Below are positions 417 to 59,730 of a stretch of DNA of 64,000 nucleotides, piece by piece. A model generated the notes under the pieces. That model was given only the letters and a program-made list of their open reading frames with translations. It did no database searches and was not told the DNA's origin. The position numbers and the translations under genes are program-made. The stretch lies in NCBI GenBank assembly GCA_911728435.2, contig OU452202.1:14921135-14985134 (forward strand), in the 5' to 3' direction. Each line of letters begins with the position of its first letter. Within the stretch, counting starts at the first letter, position 1. This DNA is from Apoderus coryli (taxonomy: Eukaryota; Arthropoda; Insecta; Coleoptera; Attelabidae).

Positions 417-883
417 TTCTATTATTTTTTCCCCTTTTACATTTTGTCAAAAATTCAGAATATAACATATACATTTTAAAATCATACTTTATATAATATT
501 TTTCTTTTTTTTTTTACACTAAAAATACATATATTATACAGGACTTCACGTTTACAAACACAATACAGTTTTCTAAAGAAGTAAATCAGAATGCCCCAAC
601 TACACCGGAAAATATGATGCAACGCATTAGAAATGCTTGCAGAAATGAGACCAGAGAGAATATGATTCAGAGTCAGGAATCCTTCATAAAGCAAATTGAT
701 ATAAGTGCATTGAAGTTAGAGGTCATCATTTTGAGAATTTATTATAATAAATTTCAAGGTTTTGTCGAGACCTTTTTCTTTCGTGTAATAGCAAATAAAT
801 TTTATTATTTCAATCGGAATAAAAAAATTTTGTTAACAAAAGTTATTTGTTTTTTTCTGTAGAATACGATTCTGTAATAAAAA

Positions 884-1070
884 AAAATACGCGTGCAGCA
901 CAGTACACGTGATAGAAGTGAATACTTCTTTCACGAGAGAGGAAGGGAATACGAATGACGGTACGAAAGGGACAACCGAAGGATAGGCAACGTTAAGCCG
1001 CTATATACATAATAGTGTATGGTATAGGATATAGTCTCTCTCTCCCTCATATTTAAAAAACCAAAGTTGA
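884..1070. repeat. Diverged copy of dispersed repeat 'B'
   Basis: Shares a block beginning CGCGTGCAGCACAGTACACG with 55487-55660 and 59040-59215, including a near-perfect 28-bp hairpin (908-935) and the downstream TAATAGTGTATGGTATAGGA. Here the GA microsatellite is replaced by non-repetitive sequence, so this is an older or divergent copy. It lacks the LINE coding tail that the other two copies have. Confidence 0.8.
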
Positions 1071-1264
1071 CCTTGATATAACCTTGAAACGGTTGTTAAA
1101 TTCGCAAATAGATATCACCACTGCATTTGCCTCAATAGCAAACAACTGTTATTTGAAAAATGTGCCGTTTTTAAGATATAAGGCTGTCTCAAGATAAATG
1201 GACCACCCGGCATATCAGTCGTATAAGCAACACCAAAATTGTTAACGATTGACAACTTAATTAC

Positions 1265-1516
1265 CTTGTTGTTCGATCCGCTTTTCCTAGAACTATCAGT
1301 ACCAGAAGTAGCAGTTATATAATCGTCTGTAGTTGTACTTTCCGAGATATCAGTATTGGTTTTGCCAGAATCTGTTCTAGCAAGTAATAAATCAGGTACA
1401 ATAGCTGGTAGTGGAGATTCGGCTGGGGGTTCTGGAGATTTTCGTTTCCATAGTGGTGATATAACTTTTGGTGCAGAACGGAAATTGTTTGTTTGTGAAG
1501 GCGATAGTAAATCCAG
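1265..1516 (-). CDS. Internal exon 11 (3'-most seen) of minus-strand host gene
   Basis: A 252-bp exon, phase 0 to phase 0, 84 codons. The acceptor is ...TTTCATGGCAG and the donor AAG|GTAATT. It begins LDLLSPSQTNNF and ends TSGTDSSRKSGSNNK. The composition is rich in Ser, Thr, Pro and Asp, typical of a disordered linker, with a run SESTTTDDYITA that suggests acidic/kinase-type sites. It joins in phase to the exon at 1575-1729. No stop codon is reached, so the gene continues to the left beyond the window. Confidence 0.82.
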
Positions 1517-1574
1517 CTGCCATGAAATATAATATATTTAGAAATTGTTAAATAACAATTTATGAAATAACTAC

Positions 1575-1729
1575 TTTGGTTGAAGGTTTCTCGACGATTA
1601 TTCGTGGGTATACGTCCTGTTCGACAGTTTCTTCATCTAAAAGTTCCGTGTCAATGGAAGATCTCTGTTGATGTTGAAGCAATAGAAGGTGTCTTCTGTG
1701 TGATGCTGGAGTAAGAAGAGTTGCTGAAC
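1575..1729 (-). CDS. Internal exon 10 of minus-strand host gene
   Basis: A 155-bp exon. The acceptor TTTCTTAACAG and donor AAA|GTAGTT are readable, and the phase (first two bases complete a Gly codon) fits the exon at 7438-7553. It encodes SATLLTPASHRRHLLLLQ, then a Gln/Ser stretch, then an acidic segment LLDEETVEQDVYPRIIVEKP. The HRRHLLLLQ core is basic then hydrophobic and could be a short helical motif. Only 58 bp of intron separate it from the next exon. Confidence 0.82.
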
Positions 1730-2270
1730 CTGTTAAGAAATTACCTACTGATCAAGCAGAAAGAAAATATATGATTTTTTCATGTTATAATTTTGTGTAT
1801 AGAAATAGCAGTGTTACAGACTTGATGAGAGTGATTTGAATAGTAACTTTCGATCAGTATCATTTAACCTTATAATTTAGACCCTTACACAGCGAATACA
1901 ATGATGATTATAAAATATGTAGGTATTTCGTTTATATTTTAAATGACGTTATGTATAGCAAAAATTAGATAAACCTGATAAACTTTTATTTTCGCTTTAG
2001 TATTCTTTAGCACTTCTAACACAGCATAAAAAGTACAGCACTCCAAGTCTCCAGTTGCGAGGCGTTATGCGCATCTCGTCGCGCATGCCGCCATTATAGG
2101 AGAGAACGTGTCAATAATCGCATAGACGTAGGTAGATACTATTCACTCCTGTGTTTATTGTCGGCGTGTACAATATAAGAGATAAATAAATATTTTGTTT
2201 GTAATCTGAATATGTGGTTGTGTGTTCTGTTCAGTATAGTGTATGTGAGACTTAATTAAAAATGCTCAGG
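1730..2270. other. Intronic AT-rich sequence, no supported gene
   Basis: I find no coding frame with domain character here. A CpG-containing patch around 2050-2110 stands out against the AT-rich surroundings, but I cannot assign it. Confidence 0.5.
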
Positions 2271-2274
2271 ATGA

Positions 2275-2486
2275 CTTATTTGGAAACTTAAATAATCCGC
2301 ATGATGTCTTTTTGTTACACATATATCGAGGTCATCTTTCAAAGAAACTTCGAGGAATTTTTATTGAAACTAAATATATGTGATGATCTTGTAAATATTG
2401 GTAATACACGAAAAGATAGTCACCCGTGTTCAATATTTCCAAAGTGTTATGTATTGAAGTTATTAAAACACACAAATACACTATGA
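2275..2486 (+). pseudogene. THAP9/P-element-type transposase C-terminal remnant
   Basis: The frame carries FQRNFEEFLLKLNICDDLVN followed by HPC. The same arrangement occurs at 54370-54480 (FQNNFENCLIKLNITNNFIN ... EHPC), and I read both as the C-terminal tail of THAP9/P-type transposases. Only this end is preserved; no THAP zinc finger or catalytic domain lies nearby. The family call rests on the match between the two copies and on separate THAP-domain pieces near 53.1 and 60.7 kb. Confidence 0.55.
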
Positions 2487-2489
2487 TAC

Positions 2490-4690
2490 ATTTATTACAA
2501 TTCTCACGTCACGTACATATATACAATTAATACTTAATACAATGGAACATGGCCGATGATACATGTTCATCACTTCAAACCGCAGTACCGAATCCCCTGC
2601 TTTTAGCGTGCGCTGTCCTTACATTATGTGAAACTATGCGCATGTGCGCTAGGTAGTGCAAATACACTACACAAAGGATTTTGTTTTGCGATTATATAAT
2701 ATAAGGTTTAGGATTTAGTTCACTTTAAAATACGTTAACAGAAATTTAAAAAACAATCATAAAGTCAAATTAATTATATGGTGAAATTTGTAATGTTTAT
2801 GTTGGTTTAGTGTTCTACGCCAAAGATTCTACTCAGATTATTTATTTGAACCCAACCCAACCCTATATTTGTATAATAAAATTTTTGACAGGGCTTATAA
2901 AATTCTGCTATTTTGTATCATGTGGCAAAAATCACCCAATCACGTCAACATTTACCTGATAACACCACTCAAAGGATGTTTTCAATCACTATGACACACC
3001 ACAAATATTTGAAATTTTAAAATTAACAGCATAACATATAATGCCAGGACTTGACTTCTCTCCTAAATTGGCGGCGTCATACGTCACAGTTTGAAATCAT
3101 TTGGTTCAAAGTGCCGACGCGACGTGGACTCGGAATTCTGTTCTTTATGCTGTGCTTATAATTCTTCTTTAGTGATTGTTACTTTGTTCAACTTTTCTCA
3201 TAGTTTCTTTGATTTCTTCTATATTCAGTAGTGTGTAGAATTTTTGCATGTGTCCTTGTCTGTGTCACGTTGTTCCACCTCTTCTATCTCAGAGTCACGT
3301 TCTTTTTTTCGCTTTGTGTGATTTTATTTATTTTTGTCCGTTAGCTTTACACTGTTTTTCCTCCTGATGTTCCTATATTTTTCTAATATGACTATATAGA
3401 AGTTTCCCAAGAGTAATAGAAAATATATTATACAAAATTGCTTATAATAACTAATAAAATCACATAAGTAGGAAGAAAAAAAAATCATAAAAAACGCTGT
3501 AACAGAAATGTTTAGAGATATTTTTAAACGTCCTTTAAGAAAGAAATTTACTACCTGTCTTTCGTTTATCGTACACATATACGAGCAATGTATTCTAGTT
3601 CTTTTATTGAAGCACAATTTCCAAATGTCGTCAGAGATCTACAAGTGGAAATTTTAGAGCTGATACATAAAAAAGTCTTGAAAAATGCTATAAATTTCAC
3701 TTTGCAGGGAAGCGGAATTTATGACTGAGTTTAACTAGCGACTATATATAAATACATTTATTCATGTGTCCTGGATAAAGGACAGTTAAATCTCTATTTT
3801 ACGACAAAAACGTTGGGGATTTTCGACGTCTATATTATGTTGTTGTAAAAATGCTCCAAAGGGTATGGCAATTAGAAACATATTAAAGGGTAAATTATTT
3901 ATTTTGCTGAATATATCATAGGATCGAAGTAAATATAGACTTCTAAACATTGCCCACAGGATAATAGAAGAAATATTACAGGTAATACGAGGAATAAGTG
4001 TAATATGTCCGGTTTGATCCAGAAATGGCACCATTTGGTCTAATTTTTTGATGGTATGCGATAATCCCTGCTTAGCGTTTATAATAACTTTCCCGTCGGT
4101 TGCTTACGTGAAAATGGAAAATTCAGCATATATATACGTATAAATATAAGTACGTATATTTCAAATGAAAGGTCTAACATCACTTCAAATATAAGAAGAA
4201 ATGGATTCAACACTTTTCTTCATCATATATAGGTATTCGGTGAGTTTTGGAGTTTAAGCAAGTTCACAGAGATCACAACTGCCGAAGATTGAAAAAGTCA
4301 TGAAAATCGTGAACTACTTGGATATTCACTGAATGAATAAGAAATATTTGTGGTAGGTCAGTGCCGGGTGTGGTAACGCTAGAAAATGTGTATACACTGA
4401 ATCACTAGATCAACCGCCAATAAGACACTTTACAATCGAAATTCCAGCAAATTATCATCAAAATACTCCTTAAACTAAACGATAAACAAAACAATAGATT
4501 GGTAAACCAACTCAACCCAACCCAAGGAAGTCAAATACAATTTTACCTGCGAATGAAGTTATGGAGACTATTCTTTTGAGACGTCAAAGGAATTCATTAC
4601 ATTCAGAACTGGTCAGTACTACTTAGAGTTATTGTAACGTGTATGAATCGTTTGCGCTTGAATCACGTACCTAGGTGTCAGGCTTGAAAT
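2490..4690. other. Intronic AT-rich sequence, no supported gene
   Basis: Only short, low-complexity open frames on both strands, none with a recognisable domain. Brief AACCCAACCC runs at about 2850 and 4510 are too short to be telomeric arrays. A 78-codon minus frame near 3790-4030 has no family signature I know. Confidence 0.5.
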
Positions 4691-9137: not shown

Positions 9138-10180
9138 AATAATAATCGTCTTTATTGCTTCTTTTTTAAATATACAAAATTTACACCAATATTTGTGTGA
9201 TTTACATGAATCACAAAAATTGAACCACTTAAGGAGGCGAAGTCTAGTTTATAGCTACTCTACATAACCTCCAGAAGCAGCGCATGAACAAGTAGTAAAC
9301 AAACCAAAATATTTTCCTTAAGAATTTAAATACTTTTGTATAAATGGACATCTCATGATTATCCTAAAAAATATTATTAATCATCGGGCTTGTTTTTTAC
9401 TTACAATTATTGCAAATTTAGAAAAAATCAGAAAAGAAAACAATTACATCGCTATTGATTTTCTAAAAGGTACCTACTGTTTGTATAAAATTTAAGTTTA
9501 AATTATGTTGTTTACAGAGTGTTGATAGGATACTAAGATCTGAATTCATGAACTGTATTGCTCGTCCACGGCCGTTGTTGTCAAAGCTACAGTAGATTTG
9601 TGTGTCGTCAGCGTAGGCGTGGACATTACAATGTTCCAATGATTTCAGGATATCAGACGTGTATATAATAAATAATAAAGGTCCCCAAATTGATCCCTGG
9701 GGCACACCAGAGACAATACTAGCCTCACTAGAAAACTGACCTTTATAAGCAATTTGTTGCTTCCTAGATGACAGATAAGACTCTATAACACACGCAATGC
9801 ACATTCATCGAAACCATAAAATTTGAGTTTTGCTAGAAGCAACTTATGATTTACCGTATCAAATGCCTTAAAGAAATCTAATAGCACTAGGAAACTGTCC
9901 AAATTTCTATCACGAGCTCGAATAATATCATCAGTCACCTTAGCCAGCGCCACTGCAGTAATGTAAGTTGCTCGAGAACCATTGTGGCAATCCGGTATAA
10001 TACTCTTAGAATGCACATATTCAGAGATCTGTTTGTACAAAACTTTCTCAAATATTTTTGAAAGAGCTGGCAAAATACTAACAATTCTAAGGTCACTATA
10101 GGTCACAGGCTTCGACTTTTTAGGAAGTGGCAGTCCATACGAAATCTTCCACAAATCAGGAAAGCATCCAACCTCAAATA
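9138..10180 (-). mobile_element. Non-LTR retrotransposon (LINE 1), 5'-truncated, minus strand
   Basis: The minus strand encodes reverse-transcriptase blocks in the right order: FPDLWKISYGLPLPKKSKP, then FLVLLDFFKAFDTVNHKLLL, then [20 protein letters not shown], then HAYADDTQIYCSF (the catalytic YADD). A frameshift near 9800 separates the first half from the second, and the thumb ends early at about 9463. The 3' side continues as untranslated sequence to an (ATT)n-type tail at 9138-9155. The style is of the Jockey/CR1-like group. The 5' end meets a second LINE in the opposite orientation at about 10180. Confidence 0.88.
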
Positions 10181-10184
10181 GTCA

Positions 10185-21534: not shown

Positions 21535-23239
21535 ATACAGTATAGTTTTATACAAATGAACATACAATAATTATTGTTAATACATAAACGATTTTTAAAA
21601 TATCGTAGGGCATGTATTGTTATGCAAAGTTAAAAGGGAGCGCCTATGAACGGCTGCGGTCGGTATTGACATTACAAAGGGATATCAAGTTGTGATTTTT
21701 TATATAATTTTAAACTTAGATTAGACTTATAGCTACCATCAACTCGACGCCTTGTTTTTTATTCCAGGCGCGACTGGTAGTAATAGACGTATTGTCAGTT
21801 ATAAAGGGCTTAAAAAACAAAATCGTAAAAATAACTAAGTACAATACGGATCCAAGGTTTAAATAAATTAGATATAATAAAAGTTTCTATAACATGTTCG
21901 TTTAAGTCAACAATTATTGCCAAAGATAAAACGAAACATCAACAAAATTGAGAGAAAAGAAACATAAAAACGGGAAACCACTACATATCCAGTGAAAAAA
22001 TGGGGACTTTGGGAGAAGCATCATATAAAAGGATTTCCTGAATGAGGTTTTAAGATAAACTCTGCAGCCAAGGGAAAAATGGTAGAAAGTGTAAAGATGC
22101 CTTTTTCATGGGCTTTTTTTCCTTTTCGTTTTTCTGGGCCAACATTACCTTATATATGTGTGTAATATGATCCGTGAAGGGTTTCCTTGAATAATGAAAT
22201 TTTCTTGCTGAAAAATACGATGAACATGTACGAGATTTAGAAATGCCTACATATATATGAGTTTAGTTTTATTTAGTTTTTTAGGAATATTACGAGGCGT
22301 ATAAAGTTAATGGAAAATACAGGGTTATTCACGCCAAACGACACGGAATAGTATGGCTAAACTATTTAATTTCCAAAAAGTTTTATTCATGGGTTCGATA
22401 AAAATGATTTATGGCTACATTTTAAAAATATTGTGAATCTATATAGGGTGTTCCAAATATAAGAAATGAACCATAGTTGTGTTTTTTTAAACGGAATGCC
22501 CTGTATATGAATATATTTTTAGATTCCCCATTCAAAATAAACCTAACTTTCATAGAAGTACATCTCACCTAAACCTGACAGTTTTTCAAATATTTTAATT
22601 TTTATAAAAATATAGACATCATTTGAATGAAAAAATTCACACCTATTCGTTTGTTCTTTTTAAGCCGGTCTGGGCTGATAAATATACCCACTCATCACTT
22701 GTTACGCCAAATATAAAAAACGCCCAATACTAAATACAGGGTGTCCAATAATATAAGTTATATTGACGTAAAGTTTAATTCTAAATAACTTGTTTATTTC
22801 AAATGGAACACCTGGTATATGAGGTCAAAATTAGATGCACAAAGTAATTATACTTTCCTATTGATAACTCTTGACGTTTTCGTGAAAAATGTACATATTC
22901 ATCATATTAGGCGAATTTTTAATTGAACCTGTTAATTTCATGTAGACCACCCTATATTTGATGATGATGAAATTAATTATCTATTAGTCACTATAGGGTT
23001 TTCCTATAGATATGTATATTTTTAATTTTGCATGGAAAAATCACATATTGGTAGTAATAGGAAGAATTTTTCAAAATTATAATATTTGACAAGTCAGCCA
23101 TGAGAATTTGACAAACCATATATATTAAAACAATAACATAATAAATAAATACATTTTTAACTTAAATTAAATATCATGATATACATAAATACTGATAAAT
23201 TTTATAATAAATGTTCAAAATGATTGGACTCTAGGCACA

Positions 23240-23620
23240 TTTTGAATCCTTTTCTAAAATTCCTTCAACAACTTTAACCATAACGCGTCTAAACGCTTCG
23301 TTTATTTGCTCCTTCATCTCCTCTATTAAAAAAGTTTTCATTTTCAATGAGTTTGTTCCTGCCCATGTACAAAATTCAACACCATTTAAAATCAGTATTG
23401 AAAAGTTCTGGATGTAGTTGCTCTGTGTTTGGGTGGTATCTTTCGTTAAACTGCCTTAACAGTCTCTCGAAGACCGCTTTTTTGGGATGTTTTTGCGCCA
23501 GGAACCTTTGAGCGTAAACTCGCGTTTTTGGACCATTCTCCCAGAATAAAAATCATGTCCATTCTTCTTTTGATTAATTGAATTAAATCAAATGTCACAG
23601 ATAAAAAACTGTTGTATGAA
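23240..23620 (-). pseudogene. Transposase N-terminus (DUF4817-type helix-turn-helix) remnant in A copy 1
   Basis: The minus strand is a degenerate version of the frame at 34582-34809: TYSKRERI.MIFILGEWSKN then RVYAQRF, KK.VF.RLLRQFNERYHPN. This is the N-terminal helix-turn-helix type that precedes the DDE domain in one large group of insect mariner-like transposases. The catalytic domain is absent from this copy, so it could be mobilised only in trans. Confidence 0.6.
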
Positions 23621-24036
23621 AAATTTCCAACTCTGGTAAGGATTTTTAACAGACTTTGACAGTAAATATCAAATTAAAAAAAATGTATTCTGTCTTCTCC
23701 AATTCTCATGGCTGACTTGATAAATATGATAATTTTGAAAATTCGTCCTCATATTATTACCAATATGTGTGCCTCTTCCATGTAAAATTAAAGATATACA
23801 TATCTATGTATAAAAAAAACTTTACTTTAACTTTAATTTTTACATCATCAAATACAGGATGGTCTACCTTCAATTAAAAATTCGCCTAATATTACGAATA
23901 TGTGCATTTTCCACGAACACGTCAAGAGTTATCCATAGGAAAGTATTATAGTATTTGACAGATAATTTCTTTGTGCATCTAATTTTCACCTTATATATCG
24001 GGTGTTCCATTTGAAATAAACAAGTTATTTAGAATT

Positions 24037-33082: not shown

Positions 33083-33745
33083 CGAGGGTTGCCTTTTAGA
33101 TTTCGGGATTTGGCAACCCTGATGTTGCAATCTGGCAACTGACAGCTCTATGGTAAAGTTGGACATTTTTGAGGTTATACGTACTCAGAACGTTTTAACA
33201 TACGAGCGCTATTTGTGTTGTTTACAGTAACTTAAGAGATTCATCTCGGCCCAAAAATGGAATTAAATCGTAAACATTTTCGTGCGATTATTTTTTACAA
33301 CTTTCGACGTGGATTAACTCAGCAACAGTGCATGGATAAACTTAATTCAATTTTTTGCGATGAAGCTGCATCAAGGACCAGTGTTTATCGATGGTATGGT
33401 AAATTCAATCGTGGTCGTAGTTCACTCCAAGACGAATTTCGTGAAGGTCATCCAAAATCAATTGTTGTTCCGAAAACCATTGATGCTGTGCGCGAACTGA
33501 TATTGCAAGATCGTCATGTGACCTATCAAGAGATTGAGACAACCTTAGGCATTAGTGGGACCAGCATACATTCAATATTGCATAAACATTTGACTGTCAA
33601 AAAAATTTGTTCGCGTTGGGTCCCACACAATTTGTCAATCGCTCAAAAAACGGATCGTGTCGATTGGCAGAAAGAAATGCTCAAAAAATATCTAGCGGTG
33701 ATAGATATGCAATTTAAATGTTACAATTTAGTTGATTTCTGTTAA
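33083..33745 (+). pseudogene. Mariner element, 5' half, with intact N-terminal domain
   Basis: A long frame from ATG at 33257 encodes MELNRKHFRAIIFYNFRRGL, RTSVYRWYGKFNRGRSSLQD, then VRELILQDRHVTYQEIETTL and SIHSILHKHLTVKKICSRWV. These are the two helix-turn-helix motifs of a DD34D mariner transposase, followed by WVPHNLSIAQKTDRVDWQKE. It stops at about residue 150, before any catalytic aspartate, so it is 3'-truncated. The 5' region starts ACGAGGGTTGCC next to TA, inside the preceding LINE fragment. The open N-terminus suggests a fairly recent arrival. Confidence 0.85.
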
Positions 33746-34439: not shown

Positions 34440-35849
34440 CAATTCAATAAGGTCCTTACATTTTTTTTTAATTTGATATTTACTGTCAAGTAGTCTGTTG
34501 AAAATTCTTACCTAAGAGTTGGGAATTTTTCATAAAACAGTTTTTTATTTGTGACATATGATTTAATTCAATTAATCAAAAATGCGAACCTATTCCAAAA
34601 GAGAAAGAATATATATGATTTTTATTCTGGGAGAATGGTCCAAAAACGCTTTACTGGCATCGCGAGTTTACGCTCAAAGATTCCCGGCGCAAAATCATCC
34701 CAAAAAATCGGTGTTCAAGAGACTGTTAAGACAGCTTAACGAAAGATACCACCCAAACACAGTGCAACTGCATCAAGAACTTTTCAATATTGATTTTAAA
34801 CCGTGTTGAATTTTGTAGATGGGCAGGAACAAAATGATCGAAAATGAAAACTTTTTTAATAGTGGAGATGAAGGAGCAAATAAATGAAGCGTTTAGAAGC
34901 GTTACAGTTGAAGGATTTAAGAAAAGGATTTAAATGTGCCTAGAGTCCAATCATTTTCAACATTTACTATAAAATTTATCAGTATTTATGTATATATTGG
35001 TATTTAATTTAAGTTAAAAATGTATTTATTTATTATGTTATTGTTTAAATATATGGTTTGTCAAATTTTCATGGCTGACTTGACAAATATTATAATTTTG
35101 AAAATTCTTCCTATTACTACCAATATGTGCTTTTTCCATGCAAAATTAAGAATATACATATCTATAGGAAAACTCTATAGTGATTAATAGATAATTAATT
35201 TCATCATCATCAAATACAGGGTGGTCTACATAAAATTAACAGGTTCAATTAAAAATTCGCCTAATATTATGAATATGTGCATTTTCCACGACAAAGTATT
35301 ATAATATTTGACAGATAATTACTTTCTGCATCTAATTTTGATCTCATATACCGGGTGTTCCATTTGAAATAAACAAGTTATTTAGAATTAAACTTTACGT
35401 TCATATAACTTATATTATTGGACACCCTGTATTTAGTATTGGGGGTTTTTATATTTGGCGAAACAAGTGATGAGTGGGTATATTTATCAGCCCAGATTGG
35501 CTTAAAAAGAACAAATGAGTAGGTATGAATTTTTTCATTCAAATTATGTCTATATTTTTATAAAAATTAAAATAATTAAAAAACTGTCAGGTTTAGGAGA
35601 GATGTACGTACTTTAACGAAAGTTAGGTTTATCTTGAACGGGGAATCTAAAAATATGTTCATATACAGGGCATTCCATTTAAAAAAACACAACTATGGTT
35701 CATTTCTTATATTTGGGACACCCTTTATAGATTCACAATATTTTTAAAATGTAGCCATAAATCATTTTTATCGAACACATGAATAAAACTTTTAGGAAAT
35801 TAAATAGTTTAGCCACACTATTCCGTATCGTATGGCGTGAATATCCCTG
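34440..35849 (+). mobile_element. Mariner-type foldback element 'A', copy 2 (left arm lost)
   Basis: Contains the central transposase N-terminus (34582-34809) and a complete right arm ending GGCGTGAATATCCCTG at 35849 next to TA. Right-arm modules with internal mariner-like borders are visible at 35208, 35349-35435 and 35664-35731. It starts abruptly in the central region, so the left arm is deleted. Confidence 0.85.
34582..34809 (+). pseudogene. DUF4817-type transposase N-terminus
   Basis: Encodes MRTYSKRERIYMIFILGEWS, KNALLASRVYAQRFPAQNHP and KKSVFKRLLRQLNERYHPNT. This is the 'R-Y-S-..E...M....G....A...Y...FP....P....F..+...+' helix-turn-helix that opens many insect mariner-like transposases. 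It ends at a stop after FNIDFKPC, followed directly by the element's arm. This is the best preserved of three copies (others near 23240-23620 and 42190-42470). Confidence 0.72.
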
Positions 35850-40892: not shown

Positions 40893-42832
40893 CTGCGCAA
40901 AAGAAAACAACTTTAGTAATATTGTTTTTTAATCTAAATACCTAAGTCAACAAATTTTACAGATAAATTACAGACTTGCACATGTTAAATTACTATGCTG
41001 AGAATGGTGTTACATATATTAAACTTTTAATTAATTAATTAGCAGACATGTCCGCATTAATTAAACCAATATTTGAACTCAACATATTAACTAGCATTTT
41101 TAGGTGACATACAAATACTTCAAAATATTACTTAAGTCTGTAATATATCTATAATGAAACGAATAATACCAACTACTACAGTGCCTACGTTCTCAATGAT
41201 TACACTTAGGTGACAAACAACAATGATATTATGCAAAAGGACGACTTATTAAAACACAGTAAGGCGTCTGTTTATAACTTTTATGTACATTTACGGAAAG
41301 GTGAGGTCAAAAATGAGTGCTAACGTATTCTTTTTGATCTACACCGGTATATACAATATGGTTCTACACGAGATGATTTTTTGTACCTGTATGCTGTGGT
41401 TCCATGCTGTGTTCCTGTTTACGCAAAAGATTTTTCATTCTAATAAGAATTATGCCTGAAACCAATGGGAAAAAGGATTTTTTATTAATTTTATAAAACC
41501 CAATTTTTTTAAATAAAACAATACTTTAGAACTACTTCATTGCTGTTTCAATCATATATATAGGTACCTACGGTTTCTCAGAATTTTTAAAGGTTTCTAG
41601 CCTTATAAATGGGACGATGGGTATAACAAAATTATAAATGAAAATATACCGTAATTATTCTGTAATTCGATTAATTGTATATATACAGGGTTATTCACGC
41701 CATACGACACGGAATAGTGTGGCTAAACTATTTAATTTCATAAAACCCCCAATACTAAATACAGGGTGTCCAATAATATAAGTTATATGAACGTAAAGTG
41801 TAATTCTAAATACCTTGTTTATTCCAAATGGAACCCCCGGTATATGAAGTCAAAATTAGATGCACAAAGTAATTATCTGTCAAATATTATAATACTTTCC
41901 TATAGATAACTCTTGACGTTTTCGTGGAAAATGCACATATTCATAATATTAGGCGAATTTTGAATTAAATCTCTTAGTTTCATGTAGACCACCCTGTATT
42001 GGATGATGATGAAAAGTTTTCCTTTAGATATGTATATCTTTAATTTTGCATAAAAGAGGCACACATATTGGTAATAATAGGAAGATTTTTCAAAATTATA
42101 ATATTTATCAAGTCAGGCATGAGAATTTGAGAAGACAGAATATATTTTTTTTAATTTGATATTTACTGTCAAATAGTCTGTTGAAAATTCTTACCAAAGA
42201 GTTGGGAATTTTTCATAAAACAGTTATTTATCTGTGACATTTGATTTAATTCAATTAATCAAAACTGCGAACCTATTCCAAAGGAAAAAGAATCAACATG
42301 ATTTTTCTGGCAGAACGGTCCAAAAACGCTCGTGAGTTTACGCTCAAAGGTTCCCGGCGCAAAATCATCCCAAAAAAGCGGTCTTCGAGAGACTGTTAAG
42401 GCAGTTTAACGAAAGATACCACCCAAACACAGTGCAACAAATAAATAAATACTGATTTTAAATCGTGTTGAATTTTGTACATAGGCAGGAACAAAATCAT
42501 CGTAAATGTAAACTTTTTTAATAGAGGAGATGAAGAAGCAAATACACGAAGCATTTAGAAGCGTTACACCAGGTTAAAGTTGTTGAAGGATTTAAGAAAA
42601 TCATTTTGAACATTTATTATAGTCTTGTTGCTTTATGTAACAAGCAATTCTTAAATAAAGCCTCCCTGCTAGGGGACGGAGTTGTTACTTCTTGTCCGGC
42701 CATCGTTTGTGAACTGTGTTTCACCCGGCATATTGCCTGTTCACGCTAGATGTCGCCAAATACATCTATCTCTCAATCAATTCTCGTGCTAGTATAAGCT
42801 CTTTGGAAATTTGCGTCACACTGCCTGCCGAT

Positions 42833-42874
42833 CACCACTGATGAGTCGTGGATCGAGGAAATGGCCGTCTGGTG
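42833..42874 (+). ncRNA. Type I hammerhead ribozyme, unit 1
   Basis: CACCA, CTGATGA, GTCG-tggat-CGAG, GAAA, TGG/CCG, TC, TGGTG. Stem I CACCA (42833-42837) pairs with TGGTG (42870-42874). Stem II has one mismatch (G.G) and stem III has one G.U with no loop. The cleavage triplet is GTC, with cleavage expected after 42869. The stem II mismatch may weaken it. Confidence 0.85.
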
Positions 42875-43168
42875 GAAGCATGGTAGTGTGAAACAAATTT
42901 CCAACATAACTAGTCTTGTTGCTTTATGTAACAAGCAATTCTTAAATAAAGCCTCCCTGCTAGGGGATTCGGGCGCATCTAGTGTTGGCAATAGGATATA
43001 ATGGAGTTGTTACTTCTTGTCCGGCCATCGTTTGTGAACTGTGTTTCACCCGGCATATTGCCTGTTCACGCTAGATGTCGCCAAATACATCTCTCTCTCT
43101 CAATCAATTCTCGTGCTAGTATAAGCTCTTTGTAAATGTTGGAAATTTGCGTCACACTGCCTGCCGAT

Positions 43169-43210
43169 CACCACTGATGAGTCGTGGATCGACGAAACGG
43201 CCGTTTGGTG
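43169..43210 (+). ncRNA. Type I hammerhead ribozyme, unit 2
   Basis: CACCA (43169-43173), CTGATGA (43174-43180), GTCG-tggat-CGAC (43181-43193), GAAA, CGG/CCG, triplet GTT (43203-43205), TGGTG (43206-43210). Stems I (5 bp) and II (4 bp) are perfect. Stem III is the self-complementary ACGGCCGT without a loop, which in such elements is taken to favour dimeric cleavage. All core nucleotides are intact. The GTT triplet is permitted but is usually slower than GTC. Confidence 0.9.
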
Positions 43211-43666
43211 GAAGCATGGTAGTGTGAAACAAATTTCCAACATAACTTAAAGTGTTGTTGCTTTATGTAACAAGCAATTCTTATTTATTATAAAATTTAT
43301 CAGTAAGTTATTTAATTTAAGTTAAAAATGTATTTATTTATTATGTTATTGTTTAAATGGTTTGTCAAATTCTCATGGCTGAGTTGACAAATATTATAAT
43401 TTTGAAAAATTCTTCCTATTACTACCAATATGTGCTTTATCCATGCAAAATTAAAATAGTATATTGTGCAACGAACATGAAATGACACATATTTCCTACG
43501 AGTATGATCTTTTGCAGCATGAGCCGCAGGCGAGTGCTGCAAATCATACGAGTAGGAAATGGTCATTTCATGTGAGTTTCACACTATACTTTTTCTATGA
43601 CTGTTTTAATGCTTTTGAATAAATTAAACATAATTTTTAGCAAAATATTTGTTTTTCGAAACTTAC

Positions 43667-55557: not shown

Positions 55558-56253
55558 GCCGCTATATACGTAATAGTGTATGGTATAGGATATAGTGTGT
55601 AGCATGCACCACAATTATCTCTGTCTCTCTCTCTCCCATATATTTGAAAAATCACTCTCATGCGGCCAAAGTTGCCACGGAGAACAAGGCAAGAAGGATG
55701 GCAGTGGGTGCACCCTGGTTTGTGTCAAACGCACAGATCCGAAGGGACGTCATGAGGTTGAGAGCTCAGAAGGTCTTTGCAATGGCAGAGAGCAAACCTG
55801 AAATTTCCACACAATTTGAATTAACAATATCTATACATATAATGGTCTCTTCCAATTTTTGCTTTTCTGGGATTTGAGAGAGAATAAGCATTCAGTCAAA
55901 AACATACAATTTATGACCATTTCTGAAGATACTTGATAGCACTTTTAAAAAAAATCGCACTTCTATTTCGAATGCTATTAAATGCTTAATTTCTGCTGAT
56001 GACTCTTTCTTCAATTTTGAGAACTCCAATTTTGTTTGAATGCCTATAAAGTTAGCTGATTTCTTCCAATCAAAGACTTTTGTGTGTCGAGTAGCAACTT
56101 TTTACTAGATATTTTCTCAAAAAGCAGCGAATGTAAAAACATAAATAAATTTAACTTATCGGATTGCCAAAAATATCGGCAATAACTTTAGGTGACTTTT
56201 CTTCGGCAATAAAAAATCTTTCAGTCCATCGTTTAACTGCTGGCAATAAGGAT
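54910..56253. repeat. Direct duplication A / A' (~457 bp) around insert B
   Basis: 54910-55367 and 55798-56253 are almost identical direct repeats (a few substitutions and a small indel). They bracket 55370-55797, which is itself nearly identical to 58931-59347. The layout X-A-B-A'-Y is what one gets from inserting a copied segment with a very long target duplication. Confidence 0.9.
55370..55797 (+). repeat. Repeat 'B', copy inserted between A and A'
   Basis: Matches 58931-59347 except for a longer GA microsatellite (55529-55555). It includes a 28-bp hairpin (55498-55525) and the LINE polymerase tail ARRMAVGAPWFVSNAQIRRD, cut at AGCAAACC where A' begins. The cut end has no poly(A), so it is not a normal LINE insertion. 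Confidence 0.88.
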
Positions 56254-58930: not shown

Positions 58931-59730
58931 GGTAGATGAACAAAAATAAATGTCACAGCACTTAATTTGAAAGATAAATGCTGCTTTTTTATAATGTAGA
59001 GAAAAATACTCATTTTAAACACTGTTCCCTCTAAAAAATTCGCGTGCAGCACAGTACACGTGATAGAAGTGCATACTTCTTTCACGAGAGAGAGAGAGAG
59101 AGAGAGACGCCGCTATATACGTAATAGTGTATGGTATAGGATATAGTGTGTAGCATGCACCACAATTATCTCTGTCTCTCTCTCTCCCATATATTTGAAA
59201 AATCACTCTCATGCGGCCAAAGTTGCCACGGAGAACAAGGCAAGAAGGATGGCAGTGGGTGCACCCTGGTTTGTGTCAAACGCACAGATCCGAAGGGACG
59301 TCATGAGGTTGAGAGCTCAGAAGGTCTTTGCAATGGCAGAGAGCAAACCCACTGATTCGCGAAGCAGTGAACTACAACGTAGAAGACGGTGCCAGGCGGT
59401 ACCGGAGACCGAGGAGTCAACTCTGACGAAGGAATCCACAGGATTAGGACACCATTAATATTGTTTCTTTCAGGTCAGGTATACTAATCTAAAGGTATGT
59501 TTCAGAGTATTTCTAGGCACCACCAACAGAGGACAACAGCAACAGACGACAATCAACATCAGAAGACATCAGCAACAGAGGACATGGAAAAAGGAGGGTT
59601 CCCGAGCCATACTACAAAGATAAGGCAGAGTTTTAGTTTGGGTTAGAGTCCCACACTACCTATGGAAGTGGTAAGGAACTCCCTAGGTGTCATGATGATT
59701 TCTCTGCCTTGGCCTAATCAAAAAAAAAAA
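58931..59730 (+). mobile_element. LINE 3' end with poly(A), including repeat 'B'
   Basis: The coding tail ENKARRMAVGAPWFVSNAQI and RRDVMRLRAQKV (the 'R.A.GAPWYVRN..+.RDL' region of Jockey-like polymerases) continues to a stop near 59458. A 3' UTR runs to a poly(A) at 59719-59730. The upstream part (58931-59180) is non-coding, with a 28-bp hairpin and a GA repeat. This is the likely source of insert B at 55370-55797. Confidence 0.78.

Follow-up and report, generated by a model that had tools for sequence, protein, structure and literature searches.

The tandem array at 42621–43282 of the window, the whole 64,000-nucleotide stretch of Apoderus coryli DNA that was analysed, raises two questions: what kind of element it is, and how it came to be inserted there. 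It is a real retrozyme, a non-coding dimeric insertion of a known kind, that of the animal non-LTR retrozymes. More fully, it is probably a dimeric retrozyme with RNA predicted to self-cleave into likely circular units of ~336 nt, and it was likely inserted by a Penelope-type reverse transcriptase/endonuclease from two internal sites of fixed position, A and B. What is new is the rule of insertion, together with its match to the rule of the Penelope-like elements in the same genome.

Structure of the window locus

A first-pass annotation had described two tandem units plus a partial third, each full unit with a hammerhead core, and direct reading, repeat finding and a core search all bear this out. 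Unit 1 (42621–42910, + strand) is ~290 nt long, and is without ~36 and ~11 nt that are present in unit 2 (42911–43249, +; ~338 nt). The 33-nt partial third unit (43250–43282, +) has its 3′ end exactly at site A (CAATTCTT at 43275–43282), so that the copy is one-ended, starting at unit position 42 and ending at A. The core, CTGATGAGTCGTGGATCGA(G/C)GAAA, is intact in both full units and begins at 42838 and 43174, within hammerheads at 42832–42875 (unit 1) and 43168–43211 (unit 2), both on the + strand. Stems I and II of the core are perfect in unit 2, as had been claimed; in unit 1 one stem II pair is broken. Cleavage is predicted from the sequence between 42869 and 42870 (GTC) and between 43205 and 43206 (GTT), in agreement with the earlier spacing of 336 nt, and the predicted 336-nt RNA unit lies between these sites (42870–43205, +). 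The window unit has a GC content of 0.44. The element contains no frame of 150 aa, the longest one listed being 78 aa, and the earlier proposal of an ORF-less element mobilised in trans fits all tests.

A search with Rfam hammerhead models, which the first-pass annotation had suggested, recognises both units but at low scores. In a Hammerhead_1 (RF00163) scan of 1.1 kb both hammerheads are matched as type I, with 25.0 bits (E 0.0018) for unit 1 and 28.4 bits (E 1.4e-4) for unit 2. As both values lie below the gathering score of 34, a default Rfam scan of the window lists no hammerhead. The hammerhead of F2, a second retrozyme family of this genome (the window copy belongs to F1), reaches 33.8 bits, also below the gathering score. 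A long extended stem I (43136–43243, +), found by folding and as an inverted repeat, encloses the unit 2 hammerhead, and 43134–43245 has a predicted fold of −55 kcal/mol (z −8.73 versus shuffles). When circularised, the window unit is predicted to fold at −108.7 kcal/mol versus −79.5 for shuffles (sd 4.8), and an F2 unit at −119.5 versus −83.8 (sd 5.6); no shuffled control reached the predicted stability of either the hammerhead arms or the complete circularised unit. Of the 105 pairs in a structure predicted from F1 only, 14 are compensated in F2, 9 are kept after a one-sided change, 56 are unchanged, 18 are broken and 8 are gapped. Changed pairs still pair in 23 of 41 cases (shuffled mean 17.2, p 0.037), and control pairs slid by 1–3 columns give 0–3 compensated. 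This covariation modestly supports the predicted structure, without proving it.

The array is flanked by ATTTATTAT on the left (42612–42620) and, by direct reading, on the right (43283–43291). The 9-bp target duplication described earlier is upheld, and becomes 10 bp if the next A (A42621 on the left), common to both flanks, is included. The retrozyme lies inside one of three window copies of a foldback (inverted-repeat) DNA element (42025–43458; 23020–23806, −; 34462–35154, +), which show ~85–87% identity to each other. The other two are uninterrupted at the insertion point, giving two empty sites where a single one had been named; one of them has one mismatch in the 9-mer. The possibility that the 9-mer is part of a common motif had been raised as an objection, and the window does contain 14 occurrences over its two strands, the two flanking copies counted. 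Because of this frequency, the proof of duplication comes not from the 9-mer alone but from the empty sites and from duplications across the genome, and with these the duplication stands.

Copies in the host genome and their ends

The host assembly (428,062,225 bases, 129 contigs) contains 3,704 matches to the core with at most 2 mismatches, and a reversed-pattern control gives 0; a lack of other tandem copies, named beforehand as grounds for rejecting the element, is not observed. There are at least 167 unit matches (best 40 of 1,505 candidates scored). Among the 100 cores listed, neighbours less than 1 kb apart are oriented −+ in 15 cases, −− in 8, ++ in 8 and +− in none. The genome holds at least two retrozyme families. 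Units of F1 (333–345 nt) are 95.0–97.9% identical to the window unit, and those of F2 (333 nt; loci L047, L049, L053, L054, L057–L059, L062, L063, L067–L070, L073, L075, L076, L080, L082 and L083) are 58.3% identical to F1, sharing with it the hammerhead and one further block.

Insertions were mapped in 79 stretches, a sample biased toward young, well-preserved copies: 38 loci chosen as the best matches to the unit, 40 of the 41 core clusters that come first on contig C1 (the 41st, L042, being already among the loci), and the window. A path-finding script assigned each base to either strand of the unit circle. Pieces below 25 nt and clusters below 120 nt were left out of the insertion calls, hence L079 contributes no insertion, and L001–L008 were dropped from the counts as repeats of other fetched places or the window itself. 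This gives 84 insertions, 43 head-to-head and 41 in a single orientation (pieces of at least 25 nt), with the window copy among the 41.

The 3′ ends are far from evenly distributed: of 127, 67 fall at A and 44 at B, together 111 versus 15.1 expected by chance, and the remaining 16 lie elsewhere. Copies that end at A do so directly after CAATTCTT in F1 and CCCATTTC in F2, with a hairpin upstream that has pair probabilities of at least 0.93 in the three of four folded units that retain the motif. In unit 2 of the window this region (42915–42943, +) consists of the hairpin CTTGTT..AACAAG (42915–42935; pair probabilities 0.93–0.98) and CAATTCTT, with the putative initiation point after 42943. Site B is a CT run in F1, preceded by a block GATGTCGCCAAA-ACATC that is also present in F2; in unit 2 of the window it comprises the block AGATGTCGCCAAATACATC and then the CT run (43072–43101, +), with the putative initiation point, judged from the junction letters, after 43101. 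The two sites are ~158 nt apart. The hairpin GATGT..ACATC just upstream of B was considered as a twin of the A hairpin and rejected, having a pair probability of 0.0 in both motif-bearing units of the four folded. A template ending at the hammerhead cut was likewise rejected, as 3′ ends lie within 8 nt of it in 1 of 127 cases, and 5′ ends in 2 of 41 versus 2.0 expected. In F1, the flank opens with A or T at 45 of 46 A ends, while for B ends the opening letter is A in 28 of 29 cases; the end motif was not found at 7 of the F1 ends assigned to A or B. The first flank bases often match the next RNA bases (AAAT, AAT), which reflects either pairing of the primer with the RNA over a few bases or an ambiguous border.

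The two sites are also combined in a regular way. Among the 43 head-to-head copies, 32 have A at one end and B at the other (22 in F1, 10 in F2), the combinations A/A and B/B are absent, and in 11 one end or both lie elsewhere. Every one of the 32 copies whose two ends fall at these sites is therefore mixed, with a probability of 2e-10 if the ends were independent, and F2 obeys the rule as F1 does. With short pieces included there are 49 two-ended insertions, 36 of them A plus B, 7 B plus other, 2 A plus other, 2 other plus other and 2 A/A, the two possible A/A cases resting on pieces of 8 and 12 nt. Loci L051 and L052 have one junction in common, and may represent a single event.

Target duplications of at least 9 bp are found at 38 of the 83 insertions tested (one of the 84 being too close to the end of its locus), and of at least 12 bp at 30 of 83, while mismatched flanks give 5 and 1, respectively, among 712 pairs. 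Where found, they are mostly 12–14 bp long, the window copy having 9–10 bp; at 45 of 83 insertions no duplication of at least 9 bp was found.

Penelope-like elements and other known systems

A search of the genome for GIY-YIG domains gave 1,260 candidates, of which the best 150 were scored. Among these scored matches, neighbouring pairs less than 8 kb apart are head-to-head in 19 of 19 cases. Two fetched copies have a single frame with RVT_1 and GIY-YIG, and a hammerhead-like motif lies downstream of the frame (RF00163, 18.3 bits, E 0.077). Setting aside generic or misassigned names, the named relatives among the 120 of 685 listed for this frame are hexapods, the closest being beetles, and a PDB sequence search with the frame returned 0 matches. 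In five of five head-to-head copies, all of one family and drawn from the 19 pairs, one end is tailless, finishing with GTCAGTTT, and the other has a tail of ~34 nt, so that in this family as well there are two ends, ~34 nt apart. Their target duplications are 12, 14, 12, 13 and 14 bp, and none of 20 mismatched pairs exceeds 7 bp. One of the palindromes (L098:809–5646) extends over 4.8 kb, with arms 99.6% identical and open frames of 751 and 734 aa, and is a recent insertion. Retrozyme units show no blastn similarity (E 0.01) to the 12 GIY-YIG loci compared, so no particular Penelope family is singled out as partner. A 7-mer, CGCCAAA, is found upstream of B in F1 and F2 (window ~43079–43086) and in the Penelope tails of L098, L100, L102, L104 and L106; it is suggestive only, as either a common binding motif or a chance match.

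Penelope-like elements were already regarded as strong candidate movers of metazoan retrozymes (Cervera and de la Pena 2020, PMC7229834), because the two occur together, both carry hammerheads and both form tandem copies. In that paper, metazoan non-LTR retrozymes resemble the present element in their type I hammerhead, tandem units of ~150–450 bp, low GC (<50%), lack of an ORF, duplications of more than 4 bp and highly self-paired predicted RNA. What sets the present element apart is that it has sequence families of its own and that its head-to-head copies end at two fixed points; the main text of PMC7229834 uses none of the terms inverted, head-to-head and opposite orientation. Plant LTR retrozymes, in the portions of PMC4918200 that describe them, are also non-coding, with hammerheads in a dimeric arrangement, but have a type III hammerhead, LTRs and 4-bp duplications, compared with type I and mostly 12–14 bp here.

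The closest parallels for the ends are in Penelope-like elements. According to PMC11167929, the purified enzyme of a lizard element (Anolis PAc) acts on both DNA strands, cutting and extending each with a preference for AT-rich sites, and has two internal start sites on its RNA, which define a tail. Rotifer Penelope elements have inverted pLTRs, duplications of 8–10 bp and a tail on one inverted end, as described in part of PMC3846280. The likenesses are head-to-head copies, a tail on one inverted end only, duplications (8–10 bp in rotifers, 12–14 bp here), AT-rich targets, two internal start sites and a hammerhead motif. The differences are that for the lizard enzyme PMC11167929 saw the strands start alike, whereas each A-plus-B insertion here uses both sites; that the spacing of the sites is ~158 nt in the retrozyme and ~30–40 nt in Penelope-like elements; and that the latter encode a reverse transcriptase and a GIY-YIG endonuclease. 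Being without an ORF, the retrozyme is Penelope-like at its ends but is not a Penelope. The two-end rule common to both provides structural evidence for a link between retrozymes and Penelope elements, with the exact start sites named. A literature search, with subscription papers and preprints outside its scope, found no earlier statement of such a rule for retrozymes.

Templates, mechanism and alternatives

More than half of the arms (48 of 86) are longer than one unit, the longest being 3.5 kb. Locus L041 has, at 760–4260 (−), an unbroken tandem arm of ~10 units in a single orientation. Units of the same array diverge by a mean of 0.6% (43 pairs), and those of different arrays by 2.8% (698 pairs). 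These arm lengths, the similarity of units within arrays and the position of ends away from the cleavage site fit circular or multimeric templates, the circles themselves being deduced. Arms of the same locus have a median divergence of 1.4% (24 pairs) versus 3.0% for different loci, and 10 of the 24 pairs fall under the 5th percentile of between-locus divergence. Another 5 (L016, L041, L055, L078, L081) reach the between-locus median, and a strict one-RNA model is rejected because these pairs are as divergent as separate loci. At L016 and L078 the head-to-head arms differ at 12 of 336 and 11 of 336 positions, like unrelated copies, yet their ends are A and B.

As the copies are often back to back, with ends at two fixed points as in the Penelope elements of the same genome, Penelope enzymes likely insert the probably circular retrozyme RNA at the two ends of a DNA break. 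In the proposed sequence of events, the tandem transcript would be cut by its own hammerheads and the pieces joined into circles. A Penelope-type enzyme would make a staggered cut of ~9–14 bp across both strands of AT-rich DNA, after which one 3′-OH would prime copying at A and its counterpart would do so at B, and either of the cDNAs might go beyond one lap. Joining of the two cDNAs would give a head-to-head insertion with a target duplication; survival of the A-primed cDNA alone would give a one-ended tandem, like the one in the window. The head-to-head arrangement typical of Penelope elements would then have a simple account, in that each end of the target acts as a primer, at an RNA site of its own. 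A more specific model, offered tentatively and with some doubt, is that the Penelope-type enzyme works as a dimer of unlike subunits, one of which starts only at A and the other only at B, that the two 3′ overhangs of a single staggered break are extended at the same time as the ribozyme-made circles are reverse-transcribed in rolling-circle fashion, and that this machine is common to autonomous and non-coding elements. In favour of this model, A plus B is kept at L016 and L078 although their arms come from clearly different RNA variants, which points to the protein and not to a shared RNA molecule as the origin of the asymmetry.

Other enzymes and other origins of the inverted copies have to be considered. 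A LINE-type enzyme could move the retrozyme and produce head-to-head copies by ordinary twin priming, with the second primer at an arbitrary internal position of the RNA. In the twin priming of L1, both target ends prime on the RNA to give inverted copies, the main priming being in the poly(A) tail and the second point arbitrary. Here, by contrast, both priming points are fixed internal sites, and the consistently mixed ends of the 32 A-plus-B copies do not agree with an arbitrary second end. The window does hold a LINE reverse-transcriptase fragment (RVT_1, 9786–10181), and LINEs make long duplications, the 15-bp duplications of Nematostella repeats being likened to those of LINEs in a section of PMC4918200; but the two-end rule recurs in the Penelope-like elements of this genome, the only elements that the comparison covered, and a LINE-type mover is judged unlikely. 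Very unlikely as the general source is folding back, in which a cDNA or antisense template primes itself, as part of PMC3846280 puts forward for rotifer Penelope. Among the 43 head-to-head retrozyme copies, 9 have inner ends no more than 15 nt apart, versus 4.0 expected, so that a minority of them may be fold-backs; the Penelope-like arms of L097 and L098 are >99% identical, which would also suit folding back. In the other 34 of 43 retrozyme copies the inner ends do not coincide, and folding back would give identical outer ends on both sides, whereas A/A and B/B are absent among pieces of at least 25 nt; as a general cause it was rejected.

The hammerhead array could also be satellite DNA reshuffled by recombination, with A/A palindromes missing because they are unstable or badly assembled. 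Hammerhead satellites are reportedly known from cave crickets, and long palindromes are generally hard to maintain and to assemble. This origin is nevertheless extremely improbable, given the target duplications and empty sites at dispersed loci and the presence in the assembly of the nearly identical 4.8-kb Penelope-like palindrome; moreover, an A/A copy with one short arm would be stable, and none is seen with arms of at least 25 nt. Priming by a Penelope-type enzyme at A and B is the preferred reading. A scan of IMG/VR with the retrozyme pattern gave 0 matches.

Other features of the window include a mariner-type transposase fragment (HTH_48, Mos1) at 33236–33742 (+) and a repeat with near-identical translations at 55596–55874 and 59147–59455 (both +); the reverse-transcriptase fragment mentioned above lies on the − strand.
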